This document shows, piece after piece, positions 15,982 through 22,328 of a DNA stretch of 64,000 nucleotides (position 1 is its first letter; every line of letters starts with the position of its first letter). Under the pieces are notes generated by a model. The model was given only the letters and a program-made list of their open reading frames with translations. It was not told the DNA's origin and searched no databases. This DNA is from Acidobacteriota bacterium. GTDB taxonomy: Bacteria > Acidobacteriota > Blastocatellia > RBC074. The stretch spans positions 1 through 64,000 of the forward strand of contig JACPYM010000031.1 of the NCBI GenBank assembly GCA_016196035.1, written 5' to 3'. The position numbers and the translations under genes were made by a program.

Positions 15982-16806
15982 ATGCAATTACTCGAAGGCA
16001 AAACTGCCATTGTCACCGGCTCCGGTCGCGGCATCGGGCGCGCTGTGGCGGTGATGTTTGCACAACACGGCGCATCCGTCGTCGTCAACGATTTGGACGG
16101 CGAAGTCGCTGAACAAGCCGTCAGTGAAATCAAAGCAGCAGGCGGTAACGCGGTTGCTTGCGTCGGCAGCGTGACCGCGCCCGCATTCCCAGACAAGATC
16201 GTTAAGACCTGCGTCGAAGAGTTCGGCAAGCTCGACATCATCGTCAATAACGCTGGCTACACTTGGGACGCCGTGGTGCAAAACATCACCGACGAGATGT
16301 GGGACGCGATGATCGAAGTGCATCTGACCGCGCCCTTCAAAATCATCCGCGCCGCTGTGCCTTACATGCGCGAAGTCGCCAAGCAGGAAATCGCCGAGGG
16401 CCGGCGCGTCCATCGCAAGATCATCAACGTGTCTTCCACCTCCGGCGTCGCCGGCAATCCGGGCCAGGCGAATTATTCCGCCGGCAAGATGGGCATCGTC
16501 GGCGTGACCAAAACGCTGGCGAAGGAATGGGGCCGTTTCAACATCAACGTCAATGCGGTGGCCTACGGTTTTATCGAAACACGGCTAACGGCGGCGAAAG
16601 AGAATCAACCCACCGCGCACATCGGCGAGAACGAGATTCAACTCGGCATCCCCGAACAGATGCGGCAGATGGCGCAGAAATTCGTCCCACTCGGTCGCGG
16701 CGGCACGCCCGAAGAAGCCGCCGGGCCGGTGTTGTTTCTAGCGTCGCCCCTGTCTGATTATGTGACCGGGCATGTGTTGCTGGTCACGGGCGGGTCGTAT
16801 GTGTAA
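15982..16806 (+). CDS. SDR family oxidoreductase (FabG-like)
   Basis: A 274-residue short-chain dehydrogenase. It shows the Rossmann motif TGSGRGIG (about residues 12-19), acidic residues for cofactor choice in VVNDLDG, the structural NNAG motif, and the catalytic Ser plus YSAGK (Tyr/Lys) triad. The end LLVTGGSYV is also typical. Several insertions relative to FabG (for example the MREVAKQEIAEGRRVHRK loop) suggest a specialised subfamily rather than fatty acid synthesis. CGGAG lies upstream of the ATG at 15982; the longer in-frame start at 15892 falls in the preceding palindrome. The substrate is unknown. Confidence 0.92.
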   Translation: MQLLEGKTAIVTGSGRGIGRAVAVMFAQHGASVVVNDLDGEVAEQAVSEIKAAGGNAVACVGSVTAPAFPDKIVKTCVEEFGKLDIIVNNAGYTWDAVVQNITDEMWDAMIEVHLTAPFKIIRAAVPYMREVAKQEIAEGRRVHRKIINVSSTSGVAGNPGQANYSAGKMGIVGVTKTLAKEWGRFNINVNAVAYGFIETRLTAAKENQPTAHIGENEIQLGIPEQMRQMAQKFVPLGRGGTPEEAAGPVLFLASPLSDYVTGHVLLVTGGSYV

Positions 16807-16836
16807 GTTGATGCCGTGTCAGTAGCCTGACCGTGA

Positions 16837-17126
16837 GGCTTGTCATTACCCAAATCTTTTCAGTTGGGCGCTGAAGGCGCGACGGACATTAGCCAGTGGT
16901 GAAACCACCGGAACCGCGTCGTTATTGGGGTTGCGTCCCGGCAGGGACGCCGGACTCTGATTTATTCGTAAATCAGCTTCGGTCCCAGCGCCCCTTCAGG
17001 GCGCGAAAATGGTGGCATCTTTTCCGGTGGTTCCGCGCAGCGCTTCACCACCGGCTAATATCCACGGCCCTTTCAGGGCCAAAAGCCCGAATCGCTAAAC
17101 GCGAAAGATTTGGGTAATGACAAGCC
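16837..17126. repeat. 290-bp nested inverted-repeat element
   Basis: Perfect 23-bp outer arms (GGCTTGTCATTACCCAAATC..., 16837-16859, and 17104-17126) enclose several inner inverted pairs: ATTAGCCAGTGGTGAA with TTCACCACCGGCTAAT, AACCACCGGAACC with a GGTGGTTCC arm, CTGATTTAT with AAATCAG, and CCCTTCAGGG-type palindromes. It begins 31 bases after the SDR stop and ends 36 bases before the next gene. No protein is supported inside it. The CCCTTTCAGGG core recurs at 21174-21370. Confidence 0.85.
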
Positions 17127-17161
17127 GTGAGGGAGGGCGGGCAATCACAAAGTGAGGTGTT

Positions 17162-17923
17162 ATGTCAGCACAACCAAAACTCGAAGCGGAACAAGAGTGG
17201 ATTCCCAAGCTCGAAGACTTAATCCCGGAGGATGATGAATCCGTGGACAATCTCTTTTCTGAAACCCAGCAACGGCTGTTGACTGAGCCGCTTTACAGTG
17301 CGTGGGTGCAGTCAGGCCAGGAACAGACCTTTTTGGCGGCGGCCAATGTCGGTGTGTATTACATGTTAGGCAGTCCGAGCATTGGGCCGGATGTATTGCT
17401 CAGCCTGGACGTGCAAGTGCCCGCCGGATTTTGGAGCCGGGAGCAGCGCTCTTATTACATTTGGGAGTATGGCAAAGCGCCCGATCTGGTGATTGAGATT
17501 ATCTCGAAAACCGTGCGCGGCGAGGACACGACCAAGAAGGACATCTATGCGCGCATGCGCGTGGGCTATTACGTGATCTTCGATCCGAACGCCTATTTGA
17601 TGCCGGAGGTGTTGACGGTTTATCGCTGGGACAACTTCCGCTATGAATCGCAAGCGACGGCTGATTTTCCTGCCCTCGGTCTCGGCTTGACGCTGTGGGA
17701 AGGCGCATACGAAGGCAAGCGCGACCGTTGGTTGCGTTGGGTGGATGCGGTGGGCAACTTGATTCCGACCGGCCAAGAGCGCGGCGACCGCGAGCAGGCG
17801 CGCGCCGAACAGGAACACACGCGTGCCGAACAGGAACGCACGCGTGCCGACCATGAACACGCGCGCGCAGAGCGCCTGGCGGAGATGTTGCGCCAATTGG
17901 GGCGAGACCCTGGAACTTTATAG
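17162..17923 (+). CDS. Uma2 family (DUF820) PD-(D/E)XK endonuclease-like protein
   Basis: A 253-residue protein with the Uma2/DUF820 fold typical of cyanobacteria and Acidobacteriota. Recognisable pieces are SPSIGPDVLLSLDVQVP, the core APDLVIEIISKT containing the D-x(n)-ExxxK catalytic arrangement, and KKDIYARMRVGYYVIFDP. The C-terminal 45 residues are a charged seven-residue repeat (RAEQEHT, RAEQERT, RADHEHA) predicted to form a coiled coil, which is common in the family. The biological role of Uma2 proteins is not established; they are nuclease-like by fold. The start codon ATG at 17162 follows GTGAGGTGTT. Confidence 0.9.
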   Translation: MSAQPKLEAEQEWIPKLEDLIPEDDESVDNLFSETQQRLLTEPLYSAWVQSGQEQTFLAAANVGVYYMLGSPSIGPDVLLSLDVQVPAGFWSREQRSYYIWEYGKAPDLVIEIISKTVRGEDTTKKDIYARMRVGYYVIFDPNAYLMPEVLTVYRWDNFRYESQATADFPALGLGLTLWEGAYEGKRDRWLRWVDAVGNLIPTGQERGDREQARAEQEHTRAEQERTRADHEHARAERLAEMLRQLGRDPGTL

Positions 17924-17985
17924 CCGCCAAAAGGCCCGTTCTGACTATCACAAACCAACGCAGTAGCCACTTTGGAGAAAATGCA

Positions 17986-20900
17986 ATGCGTCGAATTCAC
18001 CCCGTCGTCTGTTTCGCCTTGTTGCTGGCCGCGTTGTGCTGCGGCCTCATCGCCGATCAACCTTCTCAGGCGCAATCCGCCGGTAACTATGACCAATCCT
18101 TTTTCAACGCGCTCAAGTGGCGCAACGTCGGCCCCAATCGCGGCGGGCGTTCATTGACGGTCGCGGGCAGCGCAAGCCGTCCGTTCGAATACTACTTTGG
18201 CGCGGTCGGCGGCGGGTTGTGGAAGACGAATGATGGCGGCACGACTTGGCGGCCCGTGACCGATGGGCAGTTGAAAAGTTCTTCGGTCGGCGCGGTCGCT
18301 GTTTCAGAATCGAACCCGGATGTCGTTTACATCGGCATGGGCGAGGTCGCGTTGCGCGGTAACATCATGCAAGGCGACGGCGTTTACAAATCCACTGACG
18401 CGGGCAAGACTTGGAAGCACAGCGGCCTGGGCGACACGCAGGCCGTCGCGCGCATTCGCATTCATCCGACCAATCCTGACATCGTGTATGTCGCGGCGCT
18501 GGGCCATCCTTACGGCCCGAACGACGAACGCGGCGTCTTCAAATCCACCGACGGCGGCAAGTCTTGGAAGAAAGTTTTGTTCAAGAGCAACAAGGCAGGC
18601 GTGGTGGATTTGAGCATGGATCCGACCAATCCGAACGTGCTCTTCGCGGCAATCTGGGATGTTTATCGCACGCCGTGGAGCCTGTCGAGCGGCGGCCCTG
18701 ACAGCGGTTTGTTCAAATCCGCCGACGGCGGCGAGACGTGGGCGGAGATCACGCGCAACCCCGGGTTGCCAGCCGGCGGCCTCAATAAAATTTGGGGCAA
18801 GATCGGCGTCAGCGTTTCAGGTGCAGACGGGCAGCGCGTTTACGCCATCATCGAAGCCGAAGATGGCGGCGTGTTCGTCTCGGATGATGCGGGCGCGACG
18901 TGGAAGCGCAGCAGCGAAGACCGGCGCTTGCGGCAACGCGCGTTTTACTATTCGCGGCTGTACGCCGACCCGAAAGAGCGCGACACGGTATACGTGCTCA
19001 ATACCAGCTTTTATAAATCCACCGACGGCGGCAAAACCTATAAGAGCATCAGTACGCCGCACGGCGATAACCACGATTTGTGGATTGCGCCGAATGACAA
19101 CAAACGCTTGGCAAACAGCAATGACGGGGGCGCGAACGTTTCGGTCAATGGCGGCGAATCGTGGACGGGGCAGACGTTCCCGACCGCGCAGCTTTATCAC
19201 GTCGCCACTACTAAAGAGTTGGTTTATCACGTCTGCGGCGCGCAGCAGGACAATTCGACCGTTTGTGTGTCGAGTGAAGGCGCCGGGCGTGGTGGTGGCG
19301 GCGGGCGCACGGCGGCGGTGATGTATGCGGTGGGCGGCGGCGAATCAGGTTACATCGCGCCGCATCCGGCGAATCCGAATCTGTTTTACGCGGGCAGCCA
19401 AGGCGCATTGCTGACGCGCTTTGACCGCTCGACCGGCCACACGCGCGACATCCAAGTCTATCCGCTGTTCTTTTCCGGCATGCCCGCGCGCGATTTGAAA
19501 GAGCGTTGGCAGTGGACGTTCCCGATTGTTTTCTCACCGCACGATGCCAACGTGCTTTACACCTCGTCGCAGCATTTGTGGAAGACGGCCAACGATGGTT
19601 TGAATTGGGAGCGCATCAGCCCCGACCTGACGCGCGGCGATCCGAAGACGCTGGGCGATTCGGGCGGGCCGATCACCAAGGATCAAAACGGGCCGGAAAT
19701 TTACGGCACGATTTTCACGCTGGCTGAGTCGCCCATGCAGAAAGGCTTGCTGTGGACGGGTTCGGACGACGGGCTGATTCATCTGACGCGCGATGGCGGC
19801 AAGAACTGGGCGAAGATCACGCCGCCCGACTTGCCCGAATTCGCCCGCGTCAGCATTATCGAAGCTTCACCGCACCGCGCCGACACGGCGTATTTCGCGG
19901 CGAAGCGGTATCAACTGGATGACCGCGCGCCTTACCTCTATCGCACGCACGATTTCGGCAAGACCTGGACGAAGATTGTCACCGGCATCCCGGCCAATGA
20001 TTACGTCCACGCCGTGCGCGAAGACCCCAAACGCGCCGGGCTGCTTTACGCGGGCACTGAACACGGCATTTACATCTCGTTCGATGACGGCGCGCACTGG
20101 CAATCGTTGGCGCTGAATCTGCCGGATACGCAAGTCAGCGACATCGTGGTCGAAGAGAATGATTTGGTGATCGCCACGCACGGGCGTTCGATGTACATCC
20201 TGGATGACATTGGCGTGTTGCGGCAGATGACGCCAGCGATTGCGGCGGCGGATGTGCAATTCTTTCAACCGCGCACCGTCTATCGCGGCGTGCATCAGGC
20301 GGCGCTTGATTACTATCTGAAAAAAGATGCCGATAAGGTGACGATTGAAATTCTGGATGCCAAAGGCGCGCTCGTGCGCAGCTTCATTGGCACGGCGGAC
20401 GACGACAAGAAGCGGCCTGCCGCTGCTGCCGAGTCCACTGACGAAGAAGGCGGTGGCCCGCCGCGCGCCCGTCCGCCCGCACGAAAGGCGGGGACGAATC
20501 GTTTCACCTGGGATTTGCGCTACCCCGGCGCGTCGGTGTTTGAAGGCATGATTCTGTGGAGCGCGCGCGCCGAAAGCGGCCCGTTGGCCGTGCCCGGCAA
20601 TTATCAAGTTCGCCTGACTGCCAACGGCCAAACGCAAACGCAGAGCTTCATCATCAAGCGCGACCCGCGCCTGACCAACGTCACCGATGACGATCTGGCC
20701 AAGCAATTCGAACTCGCCATGCAGGTGCGCGACAAAACCAGCGAGACGAATGACACGGTCGTGCTGATTCGCGATCTGAAAAAGCAGATCAAGGAACGCA
20801 CCGATAAAGACACCACGCTGGCCGAGGCGGGCGCGGCGCTGGCGGCCAAGCTGAGCGCCGTCGAAGAAGGGCTTTACCAGGTGCGCAACCGCAGCAACCA

Positions 20901-21144
20901 GGACCCGCTGAACTTTCCGATCAAGCTCAACAATCAAATCGCCGCTTTGCGCCGCAGCATCGAAACCGGCGATGGCCGCCCGACCGCGCAATCGTATGTC
21001 GTGTTCAAAGAATTGTCTGACCAGTTGGCGGCGTTGCGCAGATTGTTAGACATTGTGTTGAAAGATGATTTGCCACAATTCAATCAACGGCTGGTGGGCA
21101 AGCAACTCGAAGCCGTCAAGATGAATAAAGAAGCAGGGAAGTGA
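17986..21144 (+). CDS. Secreted sortilin/Vps10-like (BNR-repeat) propeller protein
   Basis: A 1052-residue exported protein with signal peptide (CFALLLAALCCGLIADQPSQA). Residues about 40-750 are repeated BNR/Asp-box motifs such as STDAGKTWKHS, STDGGKSWKKV, SADGGETWAEI, SDDAGATWKRS and RDGGKNWAKI, the pattern of Vps10/sortilin-like ten-bladed propellers annotated as glycosyl hydrolase-like in this phylum. The C-terminal 300 residues include a beta domain (GTNRFTWDLRYPGASVFEGM) and a helical tail. No catalytic residues for glycoside cleavage can be assigned. It stands downstream of the Uma2 gene with 62 bp between them and is followed at once by a repeat-disrupted region. Confidence 0.88.
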   Translation: MRRIHPVVCFALLLAALCCGLIADQPSQAQSAGNYDQSFFNALKWRNVGPNRGGRSLTVAGSASRPFEYYFGAVGGGLWKTNDGGTTWRPVTDGQLKSSSVGAVAVSESNPDVVYIGMGEVALRGNIMQGDGVYKSTDAGKTWKHSGLGDTQAVARIRIHPTNPDIVYVAALGHPYGPNDERGVFKSTDGGKSWKKVLFKSNKAGVVDLSMDPTNPNVLFAAIWDVYRTPWSLSSGGPDSGLFKSADGGETWAEITRNPGLPAGGLNKIWGKIGVSVSGADGQRVYAIIEAEDGGVFVSDDAGATWKRSSEDRRLRQRAFYYSRLYADPKERDTVYVLNTSFYKSTDGGKTYKSISTPHGDNHDLWIAPNDNKRLANSNDGGANVSVNGGESWTGQTFPTAQLYHVATTKELVYHVCGAQQDNSTVCVSSEGAGRGGGGGRTAAVMYAVGGGESGYIAPHPANPNLFYAGSQGALLTRFDRSTGHTRDIQVYPLFFSGMPARDLKERWQWTFPIVFSPHDANVLYTSSQHLWKTANDGLNWERISPDLTRGDPKTLGDSGGPITKDQNGPEIYGTIFTLAESPMQKGLLWTGSDDGLIHLTRDGGKNWAKITPPDLPEFARVSIIEASPHRADTAYFAAKRYQLDDRAPYLYRTHDFGKTWTKIVTGIPANDYVHAVREDPKRAGLLYAGTEHGIYISFDDGAHWQSLALNLPDTQVSDIVVEENDLVIATHGRSMYILDDIGVLRQMTPAIAAADVQFFQPRTVYRGVHQAALDYYLKKDADKVTIEILDAKGALVRSFIGTADDDKKRPAAAAESTDEEGGGPPRARPPARKAGTNRFTWDLRYPGASVFEGMILWSARAESGPLAVPGNYQVRLTANGQTQTQSFIIKRDPRLTNVTDDDLAKQFELAMQVRDKTSETNDTVVLIRDLKKQIKERTDKDTTLAEAGAALAAKLSAVEEGLYQVRNRSNQDPLNFPIKLNNQIAALRRSIETGDGRPTAQSYVVFKELSDQLAALRRLLDIVLKDDLPQFNQRLVGKQLEAVKMNKEAGK

Positions 21145-21173
21145 TAAGGCTGATGAATACGCAGTTATTGTTT

Positions 21174-21370
21174 CATCGCCCTGAAAGGGCTTTATCTAAT
21201 AACCGGGGGCAATGCCTCCGGAACGGCGCGTATATTTCTGCGACCCTGAAGGGGTCGCAGACGGATTCAAATGCGGCCCTTTCAGGGCTGAGGACGCGCG
21301 CGTGCCGTCCCAGGGCGTTGCCTTCGGCTATTGAATCTGTCCCTTTCAGGGACAAGGTTGCGCCCCTTCA
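21174..21370. repeat. Cluster of CCCTGAAAGGG palindromes (REP-like)
   Basis: Four short palindromes share the core CCCTGAAAGGG or its complement: GCCCTGAAAGGGC (21178-21190), GCGACCCTGAAGGGGTCGC (21240-21258), GCCCTTTCAGGGC (21276-21288) and TGTCCCTTTCAGGGACA (21338-21354). Together they fill the interval between the propeller gene and the next protein. An open reading frame runs through them, but its translation there is low-complexity and basic and is more likely repeat than protein. Confidence 0.8.
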
Positions 21371-21377
21371 TCGTCGC

Positions 21378-22328
21378 GTGCAGCTTTTTGGTTTGTGCCT
21401 GTGGCTAGCTTGTTCGTGCATGCCGACATTCGCCCAAGCCGACGCCGAAACCTGGCTGGCGCGTCATGGCGCCGAAGCCGCCAAATACGAACAAGTCTTC
21501 AAAAACCTGTCCGCCGAAGAGACCAAGCTGATGGAGGTCTTCGACGACAAGGGCAACCTGCGGCAGAAACGCACCGTCATCGCCGAGTTGCTGGTGTATC
21601 AATCGGCGCAAGATGAAAACCGCATCGCCGAATTCCGCAACGTGCGCAGCGTGGATGGCAAGCCGGTGGACGGCTTTGAAGAGCGCATGGTTGATCTGTT
21701 CGACTATCTCAGCAAGGTCAAGACGCTGCGCGGCGAGATGAGCAAGCTGCACGACGAGTGGCTGAAATACGACATCGGGCGGCGTTTCTGGGGCTACACG
21801 ATCACCCAGGCGCGGCTGTTCAAAGCGCTGGGGCCGTCGGTGCGGGCGATTCCTTTCGGACGGCAAACTATCGGCGAGCGCGAGACTGTCGTGATCGTCT
21901 TCGAGCAATTGGCGGGCAACCACACTACCAACCGGGCGACCTGGGGTGCCGACCCGGACGATGTGGTGCAAGACATTTCCGGTTTGCGCAACCGCATCGG
22001 CGTCAAGACGCGCTATCGCGGCAAACTCTGGCTGGACAGGGAAACCGGGCAATTGTGGCGGCAGGAAACCGAATTGGTGGCCGACTATCAAACGCTGGCG
22101 CAACCCCAAGTAATGATCCGCTGGGAACAGAGTTATCAAGCGAGCGACTTCGGCATCCTGACACCGAAGCAATTTGTTTTTTCCTGGTTTGCCAACATGG
22201 TGGGGCGCGACACGGCGGCGGCGCGCTTAGAGTTGACCAGCCGCACGACGTATACCTACGGCAAATTCACGCGCTTCGATGTGAGCAGCGATGAGGGGCG
22301 CAAAGAGTTGTTGAACAAGAAGCCTTAG
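21378..22328 (+). CDS. Secreted protein of unknown function
   Basis: The mature part is a clear coding sequence that I do not recognise as a named family: about 300 residues beginning QADAETWLARHGAEAAKYEQ and containing RRFWGYTITQARLF, TRYRGKLWLDRETGQLWRQ and TTYTYGKFTRFDV, a layout seen in uncharacterised exported Acidobacteriota proteins. A signal peptide (LFGLCLWLACSCMPTFAQA) implies export. The start is uncertain: GTG at 21378 gives the minimal signal peptide but has no good Shine-Dalgarno; the frame stays open to GTG 21141, which overlaps the upstream stop, yet that extension is encoded by REP-like palindromes. Insertion of the repeats may have displaced the original start. Confidence 0.75.
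   Translation: MQLFGLCLWLACSCMPTFAQADAETWLARHGAEAAKYEQVFKNLSAEETKLMEVFDDKGNLRQKRTVIAELLVYQSAQDENRIAEFRNVRSVDGKPVDGFEERMVDLFDYLSKVKTLRGEMSKLHDEWLKYDIGRRFWGYTITQARLFKALGPSVRAIPFGRQTIGERETVVIVFEQLAGNHTTNRATWGADPDDVVQDISGLRNRIGVKTRYRGKLWLDRETGQLWRQETELVADYQTLAQPQVMIRWEQSYQASDFGILTPKQFVFSWFANMVGRDTAAARLELTSRTTYTYGKFTRFDVSSDEGRKELLNKKP

Follow-up and report, generated by a model that had tools for sequence, protein, structure and literature searches.

A probable chimeric MITE with IS50-like ends and a Y1 transposase-linked core in an Acidobacteriota genome

A 290-nt nested inverted repeat in the genome of an Acidobacteriota bacterium (lineage Blastocatellia; RBC074) is very probably a non-autonomous chimeric MITE, in which Tn5/IS50-like ends of the IS4 family enclose a gene-less, REPIN-like core linked to Y1 transposases. 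The repeat lies in a window of 64,000 nucleotides (GCA_016196035.1, contig JACPYM010000031.1, positions 1 to 64,000), which is the whole stretch of DNA that was analysed. Observations that support this reading, all made by sequence comparison, are multiple copies, defined ends, target-site duplications, the identity of the ends to those of an intact insertion sequence, matches between the core and the flanks of Y1 genes, a separate core for each subfamily, occurrence in other phyla, and a locus (L305) where similar ends enclose a Y1 gene. If the reading is correct, the element exemplifies a type of MITE whose ends and core come from unrelated transposases, one an IS4-family DDE enzyme and the other a Y1 HUH enzyme.

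Structure and boundaries

A preliminary description of the region reported perfect 23-bp outer arms around at least four inner inverted pairs. The nested palindrome is real: the outer arms (16837-16859 and 17104-17126) pair with no mismatch, the inner pairs are present (Table 1), and the left half is complementary to the right half beyond the individual inner pairs. As RNA, the 290 bases are predicted to fold with an energy of −150.3 kcal/mol, as compared with an average of −98.8 for shuffled sequences (z = −9.4; 0 of 200 shuffles). The extent given in that description requires a small correction. The two outermost GG/CC pairs are part of an exact 8-bp duplication, CCGTGAGG, so the ends are trimmed from 23 to 21 bp and the element proper is 286 bp long. 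Its boundaries were set from the TIRs, the target duplications and the range over which other copies match, which for most of those in the same genome is positions 3-288 of 290. The element has the properties of a MITE: it is short, multicopy and without a transposase gene, with perfect TIRs and a target duplication. Upstream is a gene ending at 16806 that we take to encode an SDR-type oxidoreductase, and downstream an ORF from 17162 presumably encodes a protein of Uma2-type nuclease appearance.

Table 1. Features of the element and of a related palindrome cluster in the window
Feature	Position	Strand	Basis
Target-site duplication CCGTGAGG, left	16831-16838		identical to 17125-17132
Probable chimeric MITE, 286 bp	16839-17124		copies matching 3-288 of 290, TIRs, target duplications
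Left TIR CTTGTCATTACCCAAATCTTT, IS50-subgroup type end	16839-16859	+	51 genome sites; 7/7 IS50 end consensus (PMC2266710)
Core, inverted doublet of Y1-associated hairpin arms	16868-17080		both flanks of L289; TIR-less homologue C111:19171
Sub-threshold match to Rfam RF01687 Acido-Lenti-1	16867-16911	−	27.1 bits, cut-off 37, E 0.0042
Hairpin 1, left arm	16868-16880	+	sequence; 98% of cells paired
Hairpin 2, left arm, ATTAGCC box just before	16893-16911	+	98% of cells paired
Hairpin 3, left arm	16933-16950	+	93% of cells paired; two pairs changed on both sides
Central stem-loop where a Y1 gene would be; copy-variable	16957-16976		alignment
Hairpin 3, right arm	16988-17004	−	weakest stem, 67% of cells paired
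Hairpin 2, right arm, then GGCTAAT box	17024-17054	−	99% of cells paired
Hairpin 1, right arm, includes CCCTTTCAGGG	17066-17080	−	12-sequence alignment, stem pairing
Right TIR	17104-17124	−	genome-wide end sites; duplication
Target-site duplication CCGTGAGG, right	17125-17132		identical to 16831-16838
Related TIR-less REP doublet	21160-21385		80% over 182 bp to L274, E 2e-39

Copies, duplications and target sites

Copies of the element were counted by sequence searches of its own genome (9.59 Mb, 139 contigs). Three other copies share 95-98% identity with the window copy, at least six more share about 70-73%, and partial copies are also present. The 21-bp end occurs at 51 sites with at most three mismatches, as compared with none for a reversed control pattern, and paired ends are spaced 285-315 bp apart. 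Many of these pairs are flanked by exact duplications of 8, 9 or 10 bp, e.g. GGTTGAAAAC, GCTGGCAGC and CTGTTTACC; allowing one mismatch, 17 elements carry a duplication of 8-10 bp, against 0.17% (0.0017) at random positions. The elements fall into three subfamilies, A, B and C, with common ends and different cores, and the window copy belongs to A. Copy numbers are probably underestimated because many contig ends fall within or beside such elements (C12, C42, C58, C67, C77, C102, C108, C110 and C131). Single-copy status, which the preliminary description had named as evidence against its own reading, is not what the genome contains. The suggestion of a non-autonomous mobile element is borne out by the copies, by their ends and duplications, and by the intact IS4-family partner described below. 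A search of relatives for an orthologous empty site found none; the matches obtained were confined to diverged versions of the downstream gene and lacked the flank adjacent to the element.

The target sites are often palindromic. Perfect inverted repeats with arms of at least 7 bp are found at 8 of the 17 target sites in this genome and at 12 of 20 in other genomes, where 4.6% would be expected by chance; many of the sites in other phyla are not independent, since they repeat a single type of target within two Hydrogenedentota genomes. Several of the targets in this genome are hairpins of other Y1-linked arms, and one of these, CCGTGGGTTGAAAACCCACGG, stands uninterrupted beside a Y1 gene (L282). 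The target of the window copy is only weakly palindromic.

Terminal repeats and the IS4-family partner

When 84,980 genomes were scanned for the 21-bp end, more than 100 stretches were found, in Cyanobacteria, Planctomycetota, Verrucomicrobiota, Hydrogenedentota, Acidobacteriota and other phyla. In a Pyrinomonadaceae MAG (L150), an intact 1455-bp insertion sequence has these ends directly at a 466-aa transposase gene. The transposase matches NCBIfam IS4_3 (E 4.5e-95) and Tn5 DNA-binding and dimerisation domains, and has a DDE spacing of 99/139 and a YREK motif, as in the IS4 family (PMC2266710). De Palmenaer et al. (2008; PMC2266710) give the IS50-subgroup end consensus as CW------Y---CA-A--W-, to which the window element and L150 each conform at 7 of 7 positions. 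The single IS4-type copy in the window's own genome, the two parts of which apparently sit at the ends of contigs C108 and C77 and which has CTTGTCATTACC ends, conforms at 5 of 7; its first 12 terminal bases agree with those of the window element and the sequences then diverge. No intact IS4 element with the exact ends of the window element was seen in that genome. The 8-, 9- and 10-bp duplications compare with 8-9 bp given for the IS50 subgroup, and other subgroups of the family, IS4Sa among them, are given as having 10 bp (PMC2266710). Taken together, these similarities suggest that an IS4-family enzyme would be the mover of the element.

Other pairs of such ends enclose different contents. 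By eye, L158 (Limisphaerales) and L184 appear to have IS4 genes with internal deletions between such ends. Elements of 453-456 bp in a Kuenenia MAG (L149, L167) have a different core, rich in GGCTTCA(C/T)GCCGG. A TIR-bracketed stretch at L206:34-1040 contains a degenerate array of CGATAC-type hexamers between hairpin units; it was rejected as a carrier of a Y1 gene, its 208-aa frame being the repeat array. A 1452-bp stretch with the same ends in an Armatimonadetes MAG (L116:5582-7033) was rejected as an autonomous partner, as it consists of an IS481 element (405-aa transposase) nested in an CTTGTCATTACCCA-ended MITE, with a 9-bp duplication, CCTTCGGGG. A stretch of 2235 bp (L101) was taken to be a chance pair of ends.

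The core and Y1 transposase genes

Beyond the ends, the core is an inverted doublet in 22 of 22 elements from this genome and in 38 of 48 others. The genome has 14 matches to Y1 transposases; several have inverted hairpin arms on both sides, and some of the arms match the Rfam family Acido-Lenti-1. With the ends removed, each subfamily has its best match in the flanks of one Y1 gene: L289 for A (6 of 6 elements), L284 for B (8 of 8) and L285 for C (4 of 4). Scores do not exceed 41 bits for the next-best Y1 gene or 35.6 bits for shuffled flanks; the shuffles in this comparison and in the doublet test were of two-base blocks rather than strictly dinucleotide-preserving. The window copy itself scores a modest 49 and 40 bits against the two L289 flanks, so its assignment leans on its sibling copies. 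TIR-less doublets that match nearly the whole core are present at C111:19171 and in a congeneric genome (G001).

The same association is seen elsewhere. Elements with these ends have cores that match the flanks of local Y1 genes in two Hydrogenedentota genomes (G118, G125) and in the Planctomycetota genome G122; the match is weaker in another Planctomycetota genome, G119. An element from Acidobacteria RBC074 resembles the B type. For the Cyanobacterial elements with the same ends, no tie to a Y1 gene was obtained.

Six Y1 proteins were scanned against family models. All pass the IS200/IS605 model NF033573; the RAYT model NF047646 (cut-off 80) gave 20-30 bits where it matched at all. HUH and Y---Q--HH motifs are present in L289, L284, L285, L305, L312 and L301. 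Judged by Y---Q--HH, DH[IV]H, WQ and a length of about 148 aa, the core-linked proteins are of the TnpA_Y1 subclass 1.2 kind, Y---Q--HH being characteristic of that subclass (PMC6006769).

The preliminary description also noted that CCCTTTCAGGG is common to the element and a palindrome cluster at 21174-21370. This likeness reflects true kinship, the cluster being a doublet that lacks TIRs and is of the related Acido-Lenti-1 kind. It lies inside the apparent 5' part of an ORF (21141-22328), the true start of which is probably further downstream. Elsewhere, at L266-L269, other ends (GGTAGTGGTAAAAATGTAATGC...) enclose doublets like the arms of the Y1 gene L282, so that cores of this sort may lie within other TIRs as well.

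Origin of the chimera

The palindromic targets suggest a simple way in which the chimera could have arisen. IS50-like elements would insert into hairpin palindromes until two IS ends came to flank one hairpin doublet, and the bracketed doublet could then have been amplified and spread as a single unit. The core is read as a gene-less inverted pair of the arms that normally surround a Y1 (HUH) gene encoding a protein of the TnpA_Y1 subclass 1.2 kind. An IS4-family transposase would act in trans, binding the 21-bp ends and excising the element, which would be joined to a target cut with an 8-10-bp stagger, preferably a palindrome.

The reverse order of events is possible, though on balance unlikely: a Y1 gene with its arms would first have been cargo within IS4-type ends, and the window element would derive from it by loss of the gene inside the TIRs. 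Evidence in support of this order came from L305 (Hydrogenedentota), where IS4-type ends, CTTGTCATT(G/A)CCCACA, lie 862 bp apart and enclose a Y1 gene with its arms, and from L332, where a Y1 gene has a single such end close by. However, the TIR-less doublets at C111:19171 and in G001 are also gene-less, so gene loss need not have occurred inside TIRs; moreover, none of the Y1 genes in the window's own genome was seen to be TIR-bracketed, and L305 is the sole clear case in the other TIR-bearing genomes (57 loci, some duplicated). A broader and doubtful proposal is that Tn5-like ends have repeatedly enclosed Y1 subclass 1.2 cassettes in at least three phyla, forming a class of two-transposase elements in which the partnership benefits both. 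If so, an example of the benefit would be single-strand copying by the Y1 enzyme combined with cut-and-paste spread by the IS4 enzyme.

Acido-Lenti-1 and other readings of the hairpins

The preliminary description also suggested a structured RNA. A functional sRNA of the Acido-Lenti-1 kind, carried or spread by the element, would account for the strong fold and for the single match in an Rfam scan of 16000-22000. That match is below the cut-off, as are those of two sibling copies (C35 and C90, 34.7 bits each). Covariation in an alignment of 12 subfamily A sequences is modest, with eight doubly changed pairs as compared with 3.6 in shuffles; five of the eight are in the TIRs, and the hairpins are mostly invariant, such that their structure is neither supported nor excluded. 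A promoter-like site was looked for and not found.

The distribution of Acido-Lenti-1 bears on the same question. The genome has 118 matches, 72 of them over the cut-off, and 14 control genomes have none. Fifty-six of the 118 form 28 opposite-strand pairs, all minus-then-plus and spanning 170-200 bp, an arrangement typical of REPIN-like doublets. Matches over the cut-off also lie on both sides of two Planctomycetota Y1 genes (L303, L311), and matches of 40 and 35 bits surround an Acidobacteria Y1 gene (L299); Rfam miRNA matches were below cut-off and were set aside. Because its copies are numerous, often in inverted pairs, and bracket Y1 genes, we read Acido-Lenti-1 as a DNA repeat of a Y1 transposase rather than an sRNA. 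With inverted pairs, both strands would have to be "the RNA". A functional RNA is highly improbable as an explanation of the window element, none of the observations calls for one, and the suggestion in the preliminary description is not upheld. Reinterpreting Acido-Lenti-1 in this way bears on genome annotation, given a 2026 paper that proposes a possible role for Acido-Lenti-1 ncRNAs in the regulation of protease genes close by (PMC13298647).

It is scarcely credible that the element is a plain MITE of an IS4 element with a core that resembles Y1 flanks by convergence: hairpin-rich sequences of like composition can share short chance matches, but the matches here reach 116 bp and 122 bits, above the shuffled maximum, each subfamily matches its own Y1 gene specifically, and boxes and hairpins have the same order on both sides.

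Comparison with known systems

The window element shares with the IS50 subgroup of the IS4 family (PMC2266710) its terminal bases and a partner transposase with DDE and YREK motifs. It differs in lacking a transposase and in having a foreign hairpin core. The duplications, of 8-10 bp, overlap the range of the subgroup and in some cases, at 10 bp, exceed it. The core has the same order of hairpin, CUA box and hairpin as Acido-Lenti-1, which Weinberg et al. (2010; PMC2864571) described as a probable RNA, in contrast to the sub-threshold match and the DNA-repeat reading here.

There are also parallels with the REPINs and REPtrons of RAYTs (PMC3116915; PMC3733652), where an inverted pair of hairpin repeats is likewise tied to a low-copy Y1 gene. 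The window element has the two inverted REP hairpins but not the GTAG tag at the hairpin foot, with ATTAGCC instead; in addition, the Y1 proteins fail the RAYT model, and DDE-type ends surround the core. Di Nocera et al. (2013; PMC3733652) described TIRtrons, in which long inverted repeats flank Y1 (TIRYT) genes, including in Acidobacteria, and gene-less copies occur as dimers. The part of that paper drawn on here makes no mention of bracketing by IS4 ends, and TIRYT proteins mostly belong to subclass 2.1 (PMC6006769), whereas those linked to the window element are 1.2-like. The proteins themselves resemble those of TnpA_Y1 subclass 1.2, with about 150 aa, DH[IV]H, WQ and Y---Q--HH motifs and low copy number in common. 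The published survey gave no associated repeats for this subclass (PMC6006769), in contrast to the inverted hairpin arms and doublets found here, which now provide DNA repeats for proteins of this kind.
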